Below, in pieces: positions 42,980 through 54,864 of a DNA stretch of 60,829 bases. Source of the DNA: Armatimonadota bacterium. GTDB lineage: Bacteria > Armatimonadota > Zipacnadia > UBA1398 > JAKPQA01. Position numbers and translations under genes: made by a program. Numbering within the stretch: position 1 is the stretch's first letter; every line of letters starts with the position of its first letter. The notes under the pieces are model-generated. The model was not told the DNA's origin. It worked only from the letters and a program-made list of their open reading frames with translations, and made no database searches. The stretch is from positions 1 through 60,829 of the forward strand of contig JAKPQA010000114.1 in the NCBI GenBank assembly GCA_029547025.1. The letters run 5' to 3'.

Positions 42980-43980
42980 CGCAACCCGGACTCACGCCCT
43001 CCTCTGGGCCCGGCCTGCGGGTCCACCGCTGGCTCGGCCTCTGGGGCGTGTATCTCGTCGTTGCCCTCCTGCTGGCGATCGGCCGGACGCTATCGGCCGA
43101 CTTCCTCTCGGCCGACAGCCTGCTGCAGGTGGTCCGCGACGTGTCCATCCTCGGCATCGTGGCCGTCGGTGTGAGTCTCGTCACAGTCAGCGGACACTAT
43201 GTCGATCTGTCGATCCCCGCCATCATGGCCGTGTCGGGCATCGTCGCCGTCGCGCTGCTCCCAGCTGGGCTGGCCACGGCATTGATCGCCGCTCTCGCCG
43301 TGGGCGTGTTGCTGGGCCTCATCAACGGCACGGTGATCGGCTACCTCCGCCTGAACCCGATCATCTGGACCCTGGCTGCCCTGGCCGTCTTCGACGGCAC
43401 CACACGATGGGCGTACGGCGGCAAGTGGGTCTATGTCGACAAGAACACAGCCACTGGCGCCCTGTTCTCCCAGGTCTATCGGGGCAGCGTACTCGGCGTC
43501 GTGCCTGTGGCCGTCCTTCTCCTCGCAGTGTCGGCGGGCTTGAGCTACGTGCTGCTGCAACACACCGTGTTCGGCAAACGCCTCGCCCTCACCGGGGCCG
43601 CCTACGATGCCGCCCGGCTCACGGGGGTGCCGGTCCGGCGCGTGGTCATGCTGGCCTTCGTCTGGTCGGGCCTCATGGCTGCCGTGGCGGGCATCCTGAA
43701 GACGAGCCTGAACATGTACGGGGACGTCGAGATCGGCGCCACCTACGACTTCCAGGCCATCACCGCCGTGGTCCTGGGCGGCGTGGCGCTGGCCGGCGGA
43801 CGGGGCACCGTGGCCGGCGTCATCGGCGGCGTGCTGGCCATCGGCCTCCTGGGGAGGATCCTCCCGCTCATGCCCGGTGTCGGGCAGGATCAGCAGCTGG
43901 CCATCCGCGGGATGCTGTTCGTCATCATCGTGGCGCTGAGCTCCTACTTCATGCGTAAGGCGGGGCACCGTGAGAGCTGA
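42976..43980 (+). CDS. sugar ABC transporter permease (RbsC type)
   Basis: ATGA overlap with the ATPase gene. The 334-residue product has about nine to ten hydrophobic helices and the family motifs VSLVTVSGHYVDLSIPAIMA, LINGTVIGYLRLNPIIWTLA and GGVALAGGRGTVAGVIGGVL, the last being the EAA-like/G-G-x-G-T-V segment of RbsC permeases. It is expected to form the channel with the permease domain of the next gene. Its stop overlaps the next start by 11 bases. Confidence 0.92.
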   Translation: MTQPGLTPSSGPGLRVHRWLGLWGVYLVVALLLAIGRTLSADFLSADSLLQVVRDVSILGIVAVGVSLVTVSGHYVDLSIPAIMAVSGIVAVALLPAGLATALIAALAVGVLLGLINGTVIGYLRLNPIIWTLAALAVFDGTTRWAYGGKWVYVDKNTATGALFSQVYRGSVLGVVPVAVLLLAVSAGLSYVLLQHTVFGKRLALTGAAYDAARLTGVPVRRVVMLAFVWSGLMAAVAGILKTSLNMYGDVEIGATYDFQAITAVVLGGVALAGGRGTVAGVIGGVLAIGLLGRILPLMPGVGQDQQLAIRGMLFVIIVALSSYFMRKAGHRES

Positions 43981-46267
43981 AGGCCGCCTCTCCGAGTGGG
44001 CTCACGCCCTCCGTTTGCCCCTCATGGGAGCGGCGATCTGTGCCGTGTTCGCCGTCCTCGTGCCGGGGCAGTTCGCCAACGGGACAAACGCGGGCAACAT
44101 CATCCGCGCGACCACCACGGACACACTGGCCGCCATCGGTCTGACCCTCGTCATGCTGGTCGGACACCTGGACCTCTCCATCGGGGCCACCATGTGCCTC
44201 GGTGGTATTGTACTTATCTTCACCCAGCCGTTGCTCGGTTGGCCCGGCGCCGTGTTGGCGGCCGGGGTGGCTGGCTCCGTCGTCGGTCTGGCCAACGGCC
44301 TGCTCGTTTCGCGGGCCAAGGTGAACTCGTTCATCGCGACGCTCGGCACCATGACCATCCTGCAAGGCGTGTGCCGGGCGCTGCTGGAGGGTGGCAGCAA
44401 GTCCTTGCCCGACGCGGTGGTCGGCCTGCAGGCGGCCGAGTGGCTCAGCCCGGTTCTCCCGTGGTCGCCGCGGGTGCTGCTCGTCGTGGCGCCTCTAGCC
44501 CTGACCGAGGTCGTGCTGCGCCGCACGGCCTTCGGCCGGAACCTGTACCTCGTGGGCGCCGACTCGCAGGTCGCCTTCAATGCCGGCGTGCCCGTCACCC
44601 GTCTGCTGACTCTGACCTTCGTGGCATCGGGCATCCTCTCTGCTCTCGGGGGAGCCCTGACCACCGCCGCGCAGAACACCGTTATGCCGAACCTCGGCGA
44701 GAAGTCGCTCATGCTCGTCATCGCCGCCGTGATCGCGGGCGGAACCGCCATGAGCGGCGGCCGGGGCACTGTCAGCATGAGTGTTCTGGCCTTGCTCTTG
44801 CTCAACACGCTCACGAACGGCATGAGCTACCTCGGCGCATCCAAGTCCGCCAAACTGGTGGCCCAGGGAGCGGTGCTTGCCGCCATCATCCTGCACGACG
44901 CCTGGCGACAAGCGCGCCTCGATCGAGTCCGCGGCCAGAGGCGACAGCTGCTTCGGGAGCTGGAAACGCAGGGACTGCCCCTGGCTTCCGTCGAGGACAC
45001 CATCTCCGCGCAAGGGAGTCCGGACATGCAGCCACGACAGCACGACCGCATCTTCGCCATGGTGTGCGTTACCGGGATGGCGTGTGTGGCCATGGTGACG
45101 ATCTACGCCATGTGGAGTCGCGGGCACGCCTCGGCGCCCCCCACATCGGCCTCGATCGCGGGGGCGCCGGAGGCGCCGGGCAGCGCCACCCAGACAGATA
45201 CCGCGGGTGCCCTAAGCCTGAAAGCTACCGACGGCCAGCCGCTGGTGTGGATCGACGACAGCCCACTCGAGGCGCCGCCGCGTCCGGCCAACCCTGAGGC
45301 TCTGCCCGATGACGACCCGCTCCGCTGGTACGACTTCGAGTATGCCGGGTGGAGCGGCACCAAGCTCCCACAGCCCGCCAGCCCTGGCGATGGGCCCCGC
45401 GGCAAGCGCGTGGTCTCCCTTCAGTACATGGACCACCCGTACTGGAAAGGCTATGGCAACGGCATGAGGAGGCTGGCCGAGGCCTATGGCTTCGATCTGA
45501 CCATCATGGAGGCCGGCAACGATAACAAGGTCCAGATGGACCAGGTCGAGCAGGCCCTGGAGATGCGCCCCGACATGGTCATCATCACTCCCGTCGATGC
45601 CAACGGAGTCGTGCCCATGCTCAAGCGCCTCTACGATGCGAAGATGCCCACCATCGCCAGCAACCTGATCCCCGTCGACGAGGGCATGAAATACGTCATC
45701 TGTTGGACCGGACCAGACGACTGGGGGCAGTTCCGGATGCTGGCGCGCGAGTTCGCCCAGCGGATGGGCAACCAGGGGGGCTACTGCGTCGTCCGTCACC
45801 TGGCCGGCACGAGCTGCTACCTCTCGCGGACCTGGGGCGCCGTGTCCGAGCTGAAGAAGATCGCCCCGGCCATGACCTGCCTGGACATGCAGACAACGGA
45901 CCTGCAGGCCGAGAAGACCAAGACCCAGGTCGCCGCCTGGCTGAAGACCTACGGCGCCAAGCTCAAGGGCATCGTGAGTGCGGACGACTCCAAGGCGCAG
46001 GTCGGCATCGTTGAGGCGCTCAAGGACGCGGGACGCGATGACGTGATCTGCGTCGCCGCTGGGAGCAGCCGAACGGGGCTCGAGTACATCAAGGAGGGCC
46101 GCCTGTACGCCATCACATACCAGTCCGCTGAGGCGGACGGCGCCCTGCCCGTCGAGATCGCCGCACGCTGGTTCCGCGGCGAGCCCATTACCCGTCCGGT
46201 CTATTACCTACAGAAGCATATCATCACGGCGAAGGACGTGGACCAGTTCTTGCCGGCGCAGTGGTAG
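43970..46267 (+). CDS. fusion of sugar ABC permease and periplasmic substrate-binding protein
   Basis: GTG start at 43970, 11 bases inside the upstream gene. The 765-residue product has an RbsC-type permease at residues 15-310 (LVMLVGHLDLSIGATMCLGG, AKVNSFIATLGTMTI, AGGTAMSGGRGTVSMSVLAL). A charged cytoplasmic linker follows to about 358, then an extra transmembrane anchor (FAMVCVTGMACVAMVTIYAM, about 362-381) and a flexible linker. Residues 478-765 form a type I binding protein in normal domain order (VVSLQYMDHPYWKGYGNGMR, MVIITPVDANGVVPMLKRLY, IVSADDSKAQVGIVEALKDA). The binding protein would thus be tethered to its own channel. An internal ATG at 45026, 7 bases after AAGGGAG, could also give a separate anchored binding protein. 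Confidence 0.88.
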   Translation: MRAEGRLSEWAHALRLPLMGAAICAVFAVLVPGQFANGTNAGNIIRATTTDTLAAIGLTLVMLVGHLDLSIGATMCLGGIVLIFTQPLLGWPGAVLAAGVAGSVVGLANGLLVSRAKVNSFIATLGTMTILQGVCRALLEGGSKSLPDAVVGLQAAEWLSPVLPWSPRVLLVVAPLALTEVVLRRTAFGRNLYLVGADSQVAFNAGVPVTRLLTLTFVASGILSALGGALTTAAQNTVMPNLGEKSLMLVIAAVIAGGTAMSGGRGTVSMSVLALLLLNTLTNGMSYLGASKSAKLVAQGAVLAAIILHDAWRQARLDRVRGQRRQLLRELETQGLPLASVEDTISAQGSPDMQPRQHDRIFAMVCVTGMACVAMVTIYAMWSRGHASAPPTSASIAGAPEAPGSATQTDTAGALSLKATDGQPLVWIDDSPLEAPPRPANPEALPDDDPLRWYDFEYAGWSGTKLPQPASPGDGPRGKRVVSLQYMDHPYWKGYGNGMRRLAEAYGFDLTIMEAGNDNKVQMDQVEQALEMRPDMVIITPVDANGVVPMLKRLYDAKMPTIASNLIPVDEGMKYVICWTGPDDWGQFRMLAREFAQRMGNQGGYCVVRHLAGTSCYLSRTWGAVSELKKIAPAMTCLDMQTTDLQAEKTKTQVAAWLKTYGAKLKGIVSADDSKAQVGIVEALKDAGRDDVICVAAGSSRTGLEYIKEGRLYAITYQSAEADGALPVEIAARWFRGEPITRPVYYLQKHIITAKDVDQFLPAQW
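45026..46267 (+). CDS. possible separately translated membrane-anchored substrate-binding protein
   Basis: Inside the fusion gene, ATG at 45026 (MQPRQHDRIFAMVC) is preceded by AAGGGAG with 7 bases spacing. The 413-residue product would start with a basic stretch and a signal anchor, exactly like an ordinary secreted binding protein. This suggests that the fusion arose by loss of the stop codon between two operon genes and that both products may be made. Sequence alone cannot decide. Confidence 0.45.
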   Translation: MQPRQHDRIFAMVCVTGMACVAMVTIYAMWSRGHASAPPTSASIAGAPEAPGSATQTDTAGALSLKATDGQPLVWIDDSPLEAPPRPANPEALPDDDPLRWYDFEYAGWSGTKLPQPASPGDGPRGKRVVSLQYMDHPYWKGYGNGMRRLAEAYGFDLTIMEAGNDNKVQMDQVEQALEMRPDMVIITPVDANGVVPMLKRLYDAKMPTIASNLIPVDEGMKYVICWTGPDDWGQFRMLAREFAQRMGNQGGYCVVRHLAGTSCYLSRTWGAVSELKKIAPAMTCLDMQTTDLQAEKTKTQVAAWLKTYGAKLKGIVSADDSKAQVGIVEALKDAGRDDVICVAAGSSRTGLEYIKEGRLYAITYQSAEADGALPVEIAARWFRGEPITRPVYYLQKHIITAKDVDQFLPAQW

Positions 46268-49671: not shown

Positions 49672-51068
49672 TGCACCCCAATGAGTAGGCAGAGGTTGAG
49701 GCGAAGTTGGGGGTACGGGTCTCTGGAGACCGCGCCGGGAGCCGGCGCGAGAGGAGCCGTGTCCCATGGCCAGTCGGGAGTTCAGCCGGGAGTTCAAGCT
49801 TCAGGTGGTGGGAGAGATCGAGTCGGGGCAGAAGTCGGTGATCCGGATCTGCCGCGAGCACTCGCTGTGTGACTCGGTGGTGAGACGGTGGCTGGAGCAG
49901 TATCGGCAGCGAGGTGCCGAGGCGTTCCAGACCGGTGACCCTCAGGCCGATGCGTTGGCCGCGGCCGAGAAGCAGATCCGGGATCTGCAGGGGGCTCTGG
50001 GCCGATCGGTGATGGAAGTCAACTTCCTCAAAGAGTGCCTGAAGAGGGCCCACGTCCCTTTGCCACCCAGCGCGAGATGGTAGAGTCCGCCCCGGCGGAA
50101 CTCCCCGTCTCGCGCCGATGTGAGCTGGTGGGCGTGAGTCGATCGGGTCTATACAAGGCCCGTCGGGCGGCGACCCGGCCCGATGGCGACGCGGAGCTGC
50201 GCGCGCAGGTGGAGCCCATCGTCGGGCAGTGGCCGGGTTATGGCTATCGGCGGGTGACGCGGGAGCTGGCCCGCCACGGCGTGGTGGCCAACCACAAGCG
50301 CGTGCTGCGAGTGATGCGCGCCGAAGGCTGGCTCTGCCGCCTGAGGTGCCGGAGCGTGCGGACCACCCAGTCGGATCACGGTCTGGGCGTGTGCCCCAAC
50401 CGCATCCAAGACCTGGTGGTGACCCAACTGGACCAGTTGTGGGTGGCGGACCTGACCTACATCCGCCTGCCCGAAGGGTTCGTGTATCTGGCCACGGTGC
50501 TGGATGCCTATTCCCGACGCGTGCTGGGCTGGAAGCTGGCACGCTACCTGGATGCGCGGCTGGCCACGGCGGCTCTGGACCAGGCACTGGCCCGACGCCC
50601 GGGCGCCCGGGCCATCCACCACTCAGACCAGGGCGTGCAGTATGCGTCGTCCGAGTATGTGGCGCGGTTGGACGGCGCCGGACTGGTTCAGAGCATGAGC
50701 CGTCGAGGGTGTCCTCGGGACAACGCCCAGGCGGAGTCGTTCTTCGCCACGCTGAAGCTCGAGGAAGTGCGGCTCAACGACTACCGCAACTTCGCCGAAG
50801 CTGAGGCCCGACTGGCCACCTTCATCGAGGATGTCTGCAACGGCAAGCGGATGCACTCGGCTCTGGGCTACCGGAGCCCCGTGGCGTTCGAGGCGGCGGA
50901 GCGCAGATCCAAAGATGAGCGGAGCGACGCCGCCTCGAACTTGCCCGTCAGGAAGGTACTGGCCCTCCCGCCGGCGAACGGCGGATACACCCCCGCTTCG
51001 CGGGGCCCAACCCAAACACCCGTTCCCCCCTCAATCCCCCCAACTCCCTGTCTACTAACCGGGGTGCA
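49672..51068 (+). mobile_element. IS3-family insertion sequence
   Basis: The 1397-base element starts TGCACCCC (49672) and ends GGGGTGCA (51068). Behind these come further matching bases (GAGTAGGCAG on the left, GTTAGTAGACAG on the right as reverse complement), giving terminal inverted repeats of about 20-25 bases with the TG...CA ends of IS3 elements. It encodes OrfA and OrfB in overlapping frames (-1). I see no target-site duplication next to these ends, so the copy may be old or its exact ends off by a few bases. The left flank is a run of ATCCCTGA-type 8-base repeats. Confidence 0.8.
49766..50083 (+). CDS. IS3-family transposase OrfA (helix-turn-helix)
   Basis: The ATG at 49766 has GAGGAG upstream. 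The 105-residue product is a classic IS3 OrfA: FSREFKLQVVGEIESGQKSV, ICREHSLCDSVVRRWLEQYR (helix-turn-helix) and a leucine-zipper-like end (AEKQIRDLQGALGRSVMEVN). It binds the inverted repeats and, by -1 frameshift with OrfB, would form the transposase. Confidence 0.9.
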   Translation: MASREFSREFKLQVVGEIESGQKSVIRICREHSLCDSVVRRWLEQYRQRGAEAFQTGDPQADALAAAEKQIRDLQGALGRSVMEVNFLKECLKRAHVPLPPSARW

Positions 51069-51237
51069 GTCCACTCTTCTACGACACCAACCTGCCCCGT
51101 ACCTCCCTCAATCTCACACCAACTCTGAACTCTCACACGCCTACGGCTTAGCCGGCGTGGTCTTGGCCGCCGGGTTCACGCGTCGAGCGCCGAGGGCTTT
51201 GGCGAGGATGTGGGCACCCATGCAGCCGGCCTCGTAG
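50035..51237 (+). CDS. IS3-family transposase OrfB (DDE integrase core)
   Basis: This frame is -1 relative to OrfA and overlaps it by 49 bases. It contains the HTH_21 segment (PVSRRCELVGVSRSGLYKAR), then the rve integrase domain with all three catalytic residues: WVADLTYIRLP (D), HHSDQGVQYAS (D) and DNAQAESFFATLK (E), plus the family end MHSALGYRSPVAFE. The frame then stays open past the right inverted repeat (51061-51068) and runs 169 bases into flanking DNA, overlapping the convergent gene at 51141. The element's own stop is therefore missing or was altered. No A6G-type slippery site is obvious in the overlap. Confidence 0.87.
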   Translation: MPEEGPRPFATQREMVESAPAELPVSRRCELVGVSRSGLYKARRAATRPDGDAELRAQVEPIVGQWPGYGYRRVTRELARHGVVANHKRVLRVMRAEGWLCRLRCRSVRTTQSDHGLGVCPNRIQDLVVTQLDQLWVADLTYIRLPEGFVYLATVLDAYSRRVLGWKLARYLDARLATAALDQALARRPGARAIHHSDQGVQYASSEYVARLDGAGLVQSMSRRGCPRDNAQAESFFATLKLEEVRLNDYRNFAEAEARLATFIEDVCNGKRMHSALGYRSPVAFEAAERRSKDERSDAASNLPVRKVLALPPANGGYTPASRGPTQTPVPPSIPPTPCLLTGVQSTLLRHQPAPYLPQSHTNSELSHAYGLAGVVLAAGFTRRAPRALARMWAPMQPAS

Positions 51238-52319
51238 TTGCTGGTCCCGATGTAGGCGATGCGCTTGCTCCCGGGCGCATCGGTGTCGAAACAGATGACG
51301 GGGATACCGTGCTCGATCGCGCGGTCGATGTACGGCGTGAGGATGCTCGGATTGCCGGGCGCGATGAGGATGCCGGCCGGCTTTCGGGCGATGGCGCTGT
51401 CGAGTTCCTCGGCCTGCTTCTCCGGACTGTGGTCTTCGGGGCCGCTGAATCGGGTTCTGACGCCGAGCTCTCTCCCGGCGTCGTTGAGACCGGCGGCGGC
51501 CGCCTGCCAGTACTCGCCGCCGGTCGAGATACCGAGGGCCACGTACTCCTCATGGGCAGCACTCCCCGGGGCTCTCTGACCCTCGAGCAGCTTCACCCAC
51601 TGGGGGTGCCTGAGCGGCAACTCCTCTTTGGCGCCCTGGGAGGGGGTGCGGAACACGTCGACATTGCCCCGATTCACCTCGATGGTACCCGTGTCCACTG
51701 TCTTCTCGATGGCGGGAATGCTTGGATCGGCGCTTGGGTCGTCGGGGTCGCGGAGGAACCTGTGCCGCAGACCATAGAGATACTTGACACCGAGATAGCC
51801 CATGTAGTACTGGCGCTGGGCCACCGAGGCGAGAATGGTGCCGTCGGCGATCTTGTCGAGCACGGGCGAGTCCCCATCCATAGCGAGCACGATGACTTTC
51901 CCCTGGCGCCCCGCGTCGGAGACGGCTCGAGCGATTCCGGGGCCGCTCGCACCGTTGACACCAGCGAACCCGGCGAGATCGGGGTGGGCCTCGAGCACCG
52001 CGGCCGCCTCGCGGGTGCCGACCTCCATCTTCGTCTCGTCGTCGATCTCCTCGACCACCTCGATCTCGGGGTACTCATTGGCAAACGTCTCGCGGTACCC
52101 GCGGATCCGTTCCTCGAGGTTCCATTGCCCCGGCCGGGTCGAAAGGGCGACCTTGAAGCGCTTGGCGGGGGCAATCTCCGGGCCGGAGGCCGGATGGGCG
52201 CCTTCGGCGGGACCGGATGGAAGGTCCTCAGACCTCTTGCAGCCCGGACCGAGGAGCGCGATGCCCAAGGCGAGCACCAGGATGGTGCCCGGCCTGCGTC
52301 TGGTCGTGCACGGAGCCAC
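51141..52319 (-). CDS. sugar ABC transporter binding lipoprotein with circularly permuted domain order (1)
   Basis: GTG start with AGGAGGG 8 bases upstream. The 392-residue product has a lipobox (ALLGPGC, Cys27). In ordinary type I binding proteins the N-half comes first. Here residues 54-183 match the usual second half (FKVALSTRPGQWNLEERIRG, YPEIEVVEEIDDETKMEV, GKVIVLAMDGDSPVLDKIAD, TILASVAQRQYYMGYLGVKY). Residues 208-221 match the usual C-terminal strand (VDTGTIEVNRGNVD). A linker of about 35 residues leads to residues 258-377, which match the usual first half (YVALGISTGGEYWQAAAAGL, RKPAGILIAPGNPSILTPYI, IAYIGTSNYEAGCMGAHILA). It is the last gene of the operon and close kin of the next one. 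Confidence 0.85.
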   Translation of the reverse strand: MAPCTTRRRPGTILVLALGIALLGPGCKRSEDLPSGPAEGAHPASGPEIAPAKRFKVALSTRPGQWNLEERIRGYRETFANEYPEIEVVEEIDDETKMEVGTREAAAVLEAHPDLAGFAGVNGASGPGIARAVSDAGRQGKVIVLAMDGDSPVLDKIADGTILASVAQRQYYMGYLGVKYLYGLRHRFLRDPDDPSADPSIPAIEKTVDTGTIEVNRGNVDVFRTPSQGAKEELPLRHPQWVKLLEGQRAPGSAAHEEYVALGISTGGEYWQAAAAGLNDAGRELGVRTRFSGPEDHSPEKQAEELDSAIARKPAGILIAPGNPSILTPYIDRAIEHGIPVICFDTDAPGSKRIAYIGTSNYEAGCMGAHILAKALGARRVNPAAKTTPAKP

Positions 52320-52501
52320 GGGCGGTCCCTCCTAACGGGTACGCCAGAGCCGCGCCGATCGCCTCCTGGAAGCCGACGCCAGGGCGGTCGCCCAACGCAA
52401 ACCGCCCCCACAGGGGGCGATCTGCACGGCATTCAGTCTCGCTGGGCCCTGGCGCCTTCCGGTGCGAGCGGCTCATGACGGCAAGCCCGAGGGGCCGTCG
52501 G

Positions 52502-53704
52502 CTAGAGGCTTCCGGAGCTGTCGGCGCCGCTGGCGTCGTCGGCGCGCTCCCCGGCGCGCTTGGCCCCCAGGGCCTTCGCCATGATGTGGGCGCCCATGAC
52601 GCCGGCCTGGTAGTTGCTGGTGCCGACGTAGGCGAGGCGCCTGCTCTTTGGCGAGTCCGTATCGATGCAGATGACGTTGATGCCCTCCTCGATGGCGCGG
52701 TCGATGTAGGGCTTGAGGGTCTCGGGGTTCCCGGGCGCGATCAGGATGCCTGCGGGCTTGCGGGCAATGACGTTGTCGAGCTCCTCGGCCTGCTTCTCCG
52801 GGTTCTGGTCCTCGGGGCCGGTGAACCGGGGCTTGACGCCCAGTTCGGCGCAGACATCCTTGAGGCCCTCGCGCGTGGCGTTCCAGTATTCGACTCCGGT
52901 GGAGATGCCGATGACGACGTACTCCTCGTTGGAGGTATCGCCCACTACTTTGCGGTCGGAGAGGAGCCGGACCCACTCGGGGTGCGTCTTCTTGATGTCT
53001 TCCTTCGCGCCCTGGGAGGGCGTACGGAAGACGACCACATTCTCCTTGGTCACCTCGACGGTGCCGGTATCGACCTCGGCCGCGATGGCGGGGAGCCGGG
53101 AGTCGGCCGACTGGTCATCGGGCGCGCGGAGCAGCTTGTGCTTCAGGCCGTAGAGGTACTTGACGCCGAGGTACGTCATGTAGTACTGGCGCTGGGCGAC
53201 TGAGGCCTGGATGGTGCCCGCCTCTATGGCATCCAGGACCGGCGAGTCGGCGTCCATGGCCACCACGACGACCTTGCCCGACCTCCCGGCATTCTCGACC
53301 GCTTTGGCCACGCCTGGCCCACTGGCGGCATTGATGCCCGCGAAGCCGGCCAGGTCCTGGAACTTCTCGAGCACCGCTGACGCCTCGCGCGTGCCGACTT
53401 CGTACTTGGTCTCATCGTCGATCTCGGCGACGACTTCTATCTCGGGGTACTCCTTCTCGAACGTCTCTTTGTAGCCCCGGACTCGCTCGTCGAGGTTCCA
53501 CTGCCCCGGGCGTGTGGAGATGGCGACTTTGAACTTCTTCTCGACAGCCGTGGCGCCCGTCGTGGCCGTGGTCTTGGCACCCGTCGCGGCGTCTGGTCCG
53601 GCCGGCAGGTCCCCGGGCTTCTTGCAGCCGGAGGAGAGAATGAGGGTCCCCAGCAGCAGCATCCAGGGGCCCAGCATCGAGGGCCTGGTCATGTTCCGAA
53701 ACAC
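52502..53704 (-). CDS. sugar ABC transporter binding lipoprotein with circularly permuted domain order (2)
   Basis: The GTG at 53704 follows GAGGAGG with 8 bases spacing; an ATG four codons on has no ribosome site. The 400-residue product has lipobox LILSSGC (Cys27). Like its neighbour, residues 57-187 are the normal C-half (FKVAISTRPGQWNLDERVRG, FAGINAASGPGVAKAVENAG, TIQASVAQRQYYMTYLGVKY), residues 211-224 the normal last strand (VDTGTVEVTKENVV), and residues 261-382 the normal N-half (EYVVIGISTGVEYWNATREG, RKPAGILIAPGNPETLKPYI, LAYVGTSNYQAGVMGAHIMA). The cut point is the crossover between the two lobes. Sequence similarity to the downstream copy is high throughout, so the permutation predates their duplication. 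Confidence 0.87.
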   Translation of the reverse strand: MFRNMTRPSMLGPWMLLLGTLILSSGCKKPGDLPAGPDAATGAKTTATTGATAVEKKFKVAISTRPGQWNLDERVRGYKETFEKEYPEIEVVAEIDDETKYEVGTREASAVLEKFQDLAGFAGINAASGPGVAKAVENAGRSGKVVVVAMDADSPVLDAIEAGTIQASVAQRQYYMTYLGVKYLYGLKHKLLRAPDDQSADSRLPAIAAEVDTGTVEVTKENVVVFRTPSQGAKEDIKKTHPEWVRLLSDRKVVGDTSNEEYVVIGISTGVEYWNATREGLKDVCAELGVKPRFTGPEDQNPEKQAEELDNVIARKPAGILIAPGNPETLKPYIDRAIEEGINVICIDTDSPKSRRLAYVGTSNYQAGVMGAHIMAKALGAKRAGERADDASGADSSGSL

Positions 53705-53748: not shown

Positions 53749-54864
53749 CTAGGCGCCGCGACGCCTCTTGGCCACGAGCACGTCCAGGGTCACGAAGAAC
53801 ACCAGAGCGGCACCGACGATCACGAACCGCCAGTCGGGCGGGACGCCTGTCTGGGTGAGACCGGTCTTGATGCAGTTGACGAGCACAACGCCCAGGAATG
53901 CCCCCAGTACCGTGCCCTGCCCGCCCACCAGGCTGGCGCCGCCGATGACGCACTCGGCGATGACCTGTAGCTCAATCCCCTGCCCGGCCTCATAGCTCGC
54001 CGTCCCGTAGCGGGCCGAGTTGAGCACACCGGCCAGTCCGGCCGTCAGGCCGGTGATGACGAATGTGACCGTGCGCACCCGGGCCACGTTGATGCCCGAA
54101 AGCGCCGCCGCCTTTTCGTTACCTCCCATGTAGTAGACCTGGCGCAGCCAGCGCAGATTGCGCAGGAGCACATCGCCCACAAGGACCGTGGCCAGGGTGA
54201 CCACCATCACCCAGAACCCCTGCATGTTGAGGAAACCGCCCTCACCGGCCGGGCGGACGCCGTAGAAGCCGGCTTTCCCGATGGCGGCAAACGATGCGGG
54301 AAGGTCATCGGACCGCACCGGCCCCGCCGCGTGGATGTAGCAGATGACGAGGCCCCGGGCGACCATCATCATGCCCATGGTGGCGATGAGGGGGCTGATG
54401 CCCACACGGGCAACGAACAGGCCGTTGATGAGTCCGCACAAGCTGCCGGTGAGTAATCCAATGAGCACCCCGATGGGGGTCGGCAGGCCACACTTGAGAG
54501 CAAAGACACAAGCCAGACCTGACAGGGCGAGGATCGATCCGACGGATATGTCGAATGCTCCGCCCACGATGACGATGGTCATCCCGACGACGAGGATGGC
54601 CTCGGTGGTGATGCCCCGGAGCATGGCCTGGATGTTGTTGGGCGACAGGAAGACGGAGGGGAAGGGGTCACTCTGGGTCTGAGGCAGCGTCTTGACGTGG
54701 AAGACGATGACCACGGCGATGACGATCAGCAGCGTGGCGAACTCCCTGAGCCGTGCCATGTTGAGCAGGGCGGCGCCCGTGATGCCCCCCCCCGCCTCGG
54801 CTACGGCCGAGCTCTCCCCGGTCGTGGTGGAGTCCCGTGGTGGAGCGCTGTGGTCGTCGGCCAT
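53749..54864 (-). CDS. sugar ABC transporter permease (RbsC type)
   Basis: The ATG at 54864 (MADDHSAPP) is preceded by GGAGGG at 14 bases; the longer open frame overlaps the ATPase gene. The 371-residue product has about ten helices and RbsC motifs: VGMTIVIVGGAFDISVGSIL, LINGLFVARVGISPLIATMG and CVIGGASLVGGQGTVLGAFL. A hydrophilic N-terminus of about 35 residues precedes helix 1. It should pair with the ATPase upstream and the two binding proteins downstream to import a monosaccharide-like substrate. It is a homodimer candidate, as only one permease gene is in this operon. Confidence 0.92.
   Translation of the reverse strand: MADDHSAPPRDSTTTGESSAVAEAGGGITGAALLNMARLREFATLLIVIAVVIVFHVKTLPQTQSDPFPSVFLSPNNIQAMLRGITTEAILVVGMTIVIVGGAFDISVGSILALSGLACVFALKCGLPTPIGVLIGLLTGSLCGLINGLFVARVGISPLIATMGMMMVARGLVICYIHAAGPVRSDDLPASFAAIGKAGFYGVRPAGEGGFLNMQGFWVMVVTLATVLVGDVLLRNLRWLRQVYYMGGNEKAAALSGINVARVRTVTFVITGLTAGLAGVLNSARYGTASYEAGQGIELQVIAECVIGGASLVGGQGTVLGAFLGVVLVNCIKTGLTQTGVPPDWRFVIVGAALVFFVTLDVLVAKRRRGA

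Follow-up and report, generated by a model that had tools for sequence, protein, structure and literature searches.

Two tandem genes in an Armatimonadota contig encode CUT2-type (RbsB-like) sugar-binding lipoproteins, P0001 and P0002, whose parts are confirmed to run in the order C-module, linker, N-module, and orthologous operons of sister species carry the protein in either order. We conclude that the modules are swapped because Pfam, sequence matches to PDB entries, an AlphaFold2 model and unpermuted orthologues of 55-71% identity agree, bearing out the swapped lobe order that an earlier note had read in both copies. We consider it likely that P0001 and P0002 are functional, naturally circularly permuted lipoproteins serving the RbsA/RbsC-type importer encoded beside them, and somewhat more likely than not that the normal-order members are reversions.

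Operon layout and module order

Within the window, by which we mean the whole 60,829-nucleotide stretch of DNA that was analysed, the operon runs on the minus strand from the ATPase P0004 through the permease P0003 to P0002 and P0001 (Table 1). It pairs the binding proteins with an RbsA-like tandem ATPase and an RbsC-like permease, as CUT2 families do, and both partners are ordinary CUT2 components, in keeping with their earlier description as normal. The two binding-protein genes are separated by 182 bp, and each begins with GTG, 8 nt after a ribosome site (GAGGAGG for P0002, AGGAGG for P0001). Both products have a signal peptide, with Cys27 as the likely lipidation site in each; the two lipoboxes, LSSGC and LGPGC, depart from the standard in lacking the usual Leu at -3. 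The copies are 68-70% identical in each half. An IS3-like transposase pair (OrfA/OrfB; 49766-51237, plus strand) adjoins the second binding-protein gene. A separate plus-strand ORF (43970-46267), preceded by a second permease and tandem ATPase, has a normal-order binding domain (PF13407) fused to an RbsC-type permease (PF02653), and so encodes a transporter whose binding protein is part of the same polypeptide.

Table 1. Features of the permuted binding-protein operon in the window.
Feature	Position	Strand	Basis
RbsA-type tandem ATPase P0004	54909..56456	(-)	PF00005, two stretches
RbsC-type permease P0003	about 53749..54864	(-)	PF02653, 121 bits
Sugar-binding lipoprotein P0002, copy 1, permuted, 400 aa	52502..53704	(-)	ORF, SD, signal peptide, Cys27, PF13407, AF2
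C-module of P0002 (C-lobe from strand betaF plus usual C-terminal strands), aa 58-226	53027..53533	(-)	
Inter-module linker of P0002, new, FRTPSQGAKE...LLSDRKVVGDTS, aa 227-259	52928..53026	(-)	
N-module of P0002 (N-lobe first portion plus helix alpha4), aa 260-384	52553..52927	(-)	
Sugar-binding lipoprotein P0001, copy 2, permuted, 392 aa	51141..52319	(-)	ORF, PF13407
C-module of P0001, aa 55-223	51651..52157	(-)	
Inter-module linker of P0001, same length as that of P0002, aa 224-256	51552..51650	(-)	
N-module of P0001, aa 257-381	51177..51551	(-)	

Both proteins matched PF13407 (Peripla_BP_4) with 187 bits for P0001 and 200 bits for P0002 at a cut-off of 35.1, yet neither has the collinear N-lobe to C-lobe order usual for PF13407/CUT2 proteins. 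Profile positions 3-122 matched the C-terminal part of each, and the N-terminal part was matched by positions 99-252 in P0002 and 127-251 in P0001. In a survey of the PF13407 proteins of the class, this swapped two-stretch pattern was found only in proteins of this operon, which excludes chance. Searches of the PDB with phmmer gave the same picture: across 6sw4, 3g1w and others, the known second half aligned with residues 56-226 and the known first half with residues 257-382. In 3g1w, residues 128-294 correspond to P0002 58-226 and residues 3-125 to P0002 258-380. The two stretches meet at 125/128, which puts the cut in the C-lobe, after helix alpha4 and before strand betaF. The earlier note had placed it at the lobe crossover; the cut is indeed common to both copies, but its position is one helix further on. 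The P0002 linker has no counterpart in 38 canonical relatives and corresponds to the prolonged C-terminal tail of the unpermuted orthologues. When the proteins were rotated and scored pairwise against E. coli RbsB, P0002 was unchanged and P0001 rose from 93 to 101; at so low an identity this comparison had too little power to be informative, and the order rests on profiles and orthologues. A duplicated C-half joined to an unrelated domain was ruled out, as the N-half of PF13407 scores more than 100 bits on the C-terminal part.

Predicted fold, binding pocket and precedents

An AlphaFold2 model of P0002, built from permuted homologues together with half-length fragments of normal ones, had a mean pLDDT of 88.8 (95-98 in the core, with single core blocks at 91-99) and a pTM of 0.81, and showed the bilobed Rossmann-like fold of PF13407/CUT2 proteins. 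Its elements run from betaF of the C-lobe onward through the final strands, three short linker helices and the N-lobe elements to a last long helix, the equivalent of alpha4. A model of the normal-order sister protein of genome G248 contains the same secondary-structure elements in the usual order, relative to which that of P0002 is rotated. Foldseek returned the permuted entry 5er3 as the best match to P0002 (276 columns, TMt 0.63, E 2e-14). Against canonical binding proteins only one half aligned (TMq 0.28-0.40, 155-193 columns), and end-to-end alignments were found solely out of register, at 10-14% identity. As a control, the G248 protein aligned end to end with 6sw4 and 3g1w over about 301 columns (TMt 0.89-0.93, E down to 3e-26). 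Aligned separately and predicted as a structure, the halves thus fall in the swapped and not the usual order by phmmer, AlphaFold2 and Foldseek alike.

In this topology the chain would start at its lipid anchor, followed by a flexible spacer, enter the C-lobe at the first strand and continue to the old C-terminus; the new linker, which is helical, would bring it across to the old N-terminus, and it would end after the first C-lobe helix. The same bilobed fold and pocket would form despite the rotated order. Both chain ends, and with them the lipid anchor, would lie on the C-lobe rather than the N-lobe, a consequence that the earlier note had foreseen and that follows from the topology.

We next consider the pocket. 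At RbsB positions F15, F16, D89, R141, N190, D215 and Q235, which together with N13, R90 and F164 we take to be the sugar contacts, the equivalent residues are Y, W, D, R, N, D and Q in 8/8 binding proteins of these orthologous operons; the positions of N13, R90 and F164 are changed in the window proteins and their orthologues. Among the nearest relatives of known structure are an arabinose-binding and a glucose/xylose-binding protein, and by sequence the ligand of P0001 and P0002 is likely a monosaccharide. We infer that the permuted proteins bind sugar and close like other binding proteins. The canonical CUT2 proteins closest by sequence, AraP 6sw4, 3g1w and the T. maritima glucose-binding protein 2h3h (30-37% identity over the better half), have the same fold and pocket residues but the normal order.

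The earlier note had regarded a natural permuted sugar-binding protein as new; that claim does not hold, because two precede it. TpMglB-2 (Tp0684) of T. pallidum was described in 2016 as a glucose-binding lipoprotein that is both circularly permuted and functional, and was proposed as Type Ic / Cluster Bc (PMC4990184; PDB 6bgc), with spirochaetal and Gram-positive relatives (PMC4990184). Like the window proteins it is a natural permuted type I sugar-binding lipoprotein with a cognate ABC permease and ATPase. Glucose binding and closure were shown for TpMglB-2 by experiment. Its similarity to the window proteins is weak (Foldseek rank 26, 11% identity, rmsd 11). TpMglB-2 is cut inside the N-lobe, with strand order 5-4-6-1-2-3 and both ends in that lobe (PMC4990184). 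The Type Ic cut places the first three strands C-terminally; the C-terminus of the window proteins instead holds the whole first N-lobe portion and alpha4.

The other precedent, the Rhodopirellula baltica binding protein 5er3 (2015), is permuted with a cut in the C-lobe and is collinear with P0002 at 24% identity. Its cut falls later by one beta-alpha unit (about 151-156 in 2h3h numbering, compared with about 124), so that its C-terminus retains betaF-alpha5 whereas the window proteins start with betaF. We found no paper on 5er3 in the open literature. Three distant members of the phylum (G140, G175 and G177; loci L027, L026 and L025) encode 5er3-like permuted proteins with the same later cut; the L026 protein (G175) is collinear with 5er3 at 292 bits, and an ABC ATPase gene adjoins the binding-protein gene in L025 and L027. 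The cut of the window proteins also equals, by design of the latter, that of RBP-CPC, an isolated lobe engineered from T. maritima RBP with its new N-terminus at residue 128 and alpha4 moved C-terminally (PMC9815098). Natural permuted sugar-binding proteins are therefore already known, and the window proteins represent a third natural cut point.

Both module orders among sister operons

Close permease orthologues (E<1e-60) occur in 7/46 genomes of the class. Each of the seven has one binding protein of the subfamily, except the window genome (G000), which has two. The protein is permuted in four of the seven (both copies in G000, and G249, G255 and G275) and in normal order in the other three (G248, G250 and G274). 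The swapped order does recur in operons where an RbsC-type permease gene lies next to the binding protein, a point that the earlier note had proposed to check, but it is not shared throughout the clade, since the orthologues of sister species are in normal order. The three unpermuted orthologues occupy the same operon and differ from the window proteins by their order and by a long junction and tail; they are 52-71% identical to the window proteins' halves.

Three pairs of closest relatives are of opposite order. G248 (normal) and G249 (permuted), of the same genus, are 83% identical in both halves; G274 (normal) and G275 (permuted), also of the same genus and with the same downstream gene, are 75-77% identical; and G250 (normal) and G255 (permuted) are 76-80% identical. 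Permease and ATPase give the same pairing for G248/G249 and G274/G275, and permease alone does not resolve G250/G255. Trees of the N-half, the C-half and both require at least four order changes with normal-order outgroups, all outgroups examined being of normal order, and a single permuted clade was rejected (AU p 9e-8, 1e-7 and 1e-82). In the two within-genus pairs the stretch from the permease end through the ribosome site to the signal peptide aligns with scores of 240 and 155, compared with shuffled maxima of 114 and 100. Since this leader is still alignable, the leader stayed in place and the two modules behind it swapped places. On these sequences, from the draft assemblies of seven genomes, three to four order switches appear to be needed. 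Horizontal transfer of a ready-made permuted protein was ruled out, because both halves group with the unpermuted sister and, in the within-genus pairs, so do the ATPase and permease.

Searches around the binding-protein genes gave no convincing leftover module fragments, so that no remnant testifies to a recent switch, and no three-module gene was found. Among plasmid records no place covered >=80% of the query, and a scan of genome contigs returned the known members and a distant normal-order Lachnospiraceae protein alone. We found no report of both module orders side by side in an orthologous operon of sister species. In G250 an IS110-like transposase sits between permease and binding protein (L037 1931-2998), and mobile elements, namely this one and the IS3-like pair beside the window gene, may have contributed to the rearrangements. 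The operon of G255 carries an inserted 557-aa gene between ATPase and permease (L042 3018-4688), whose product appears to be exported. The G274 assembly breaks inside the C-module (L038 end / L039 start), in contigs with an identical 74-bp overlap; such a break is as expected at a branching assembly graph, possibly from strain variation or a repeat there.

Direction of change and rival explanations

The junctions carry scars that bear on direction. We measured the junction from the start of alpha4 to the pocket Arg and the tail after the DTG motif. In the 38 canonical relatives the N-C junction is 32-34 residues (one 40) and the C-tail 13-38. The normal-order orthologues of G274, G250 and G248 have junctions of 40, 42 and 42 and tails of 45, 46 and 39, the extra residues sitting exactly at the permuted form's free ends and linker. 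After TPSQGAKE, the permuted linkers are 28, 28, 28, 28 and 27 residues long and the normal-order tails 16-23; the motif LLSDRKQGEA is common to G255 and G275 and absent from their sisters. Because of these scars, the near-constant permuted linkers and the shared motif, we somewhat favour the permuted form as ancestral in the clade, before the normal order. Against this, the three normal-order junctions are similar and have one His in common, and could be homologous rather than made anew.

Permutation by duplication is a textbook route (PMC3320104). A two-module tandem array could be opened at either module, and permuted and normal forms would be two phases of one C-N-C-N array. In a reversion, neighbouring tandem copies would be re-fused, the N-module of the first being joined to the C-module of the second. 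From a pair like that in the window, a normal gene would arise by deletion of the first C-module, fusion of N-module 1 to C-module 2 over the 182-bp gap and loss of N-module 2, which makes the window's tandem permuted pair a candidate intermediate of the phase shift. We give about even odds to the full scheme of reversible, recurrent permutation, with three to four switches from a permuted ancestor and normal genes as re-fusions from tandem copies that left linker and tail scars.

Should the normal order instead be ancestral, about four independent permutations (G000, G249, G255 and G275) would have occurred at one cut, with a long junction loop and C-tail arising first as a permissive state. 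Parsimony does not separate this from the permuted-first reading, one gain and three reversions costing the same as four gains, and the normal outgroups and the alike normal junctions (40-42) speak for it. Had the events been independent, however, linkers of differing length would be expected, and the permuted ones are near-constant although normal-order tails vary; LLSDRKQGEA is also shared although the sisters' tails differ. We regard normal-first as rather unlikely. An ancestor with both forms in tandem, whose halves were homogenised by gene conversion within each genome before lineages lost one form, would account for the alike permuted linkers, the alike normal junctions and the grouping of halves by species, and tandem copies do exist in the window. 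Those copies, though, have diverged to 68-70% identity and show no recent conversion, and no operon genome has one copy of each order, which makes this account improbable.

That the permuted proteins are chemoreceptors or sensors, or are degenerating and no longer serve transport, is suggested by the two tandem copies and by the discussion of permuted TpMglB-2 as a chemoreceptor as well (PMC4990184); with the genes kept directly after ATPase and permease, frames intact and pocket residues conserved, we consider it very unlikely. Least credible of all is an artefact of assembly or gene prediction from collapsed or chimeric tandem copies. The assemblies are drafts and the G274 gene spans a contig break, but the module junctions of 8/8 genes each fall within one contig, the frames are open and the linkers conserved, the five permuted genes come from four independent assemblies, and one normal-order gene lies within a 153 kb contig.

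Natural circular permutations have mostly been recognised between distant proteins that parted long ago, and their origin and neutrality have been argued from little evidence. Here, sisters at 75-83% identity differ in order with operon, leader and modules kept, amounting to a recent and replicated natural experiment. One protein available in either order, junction scars included, would allow folding, binding, closure and transport to be compared.
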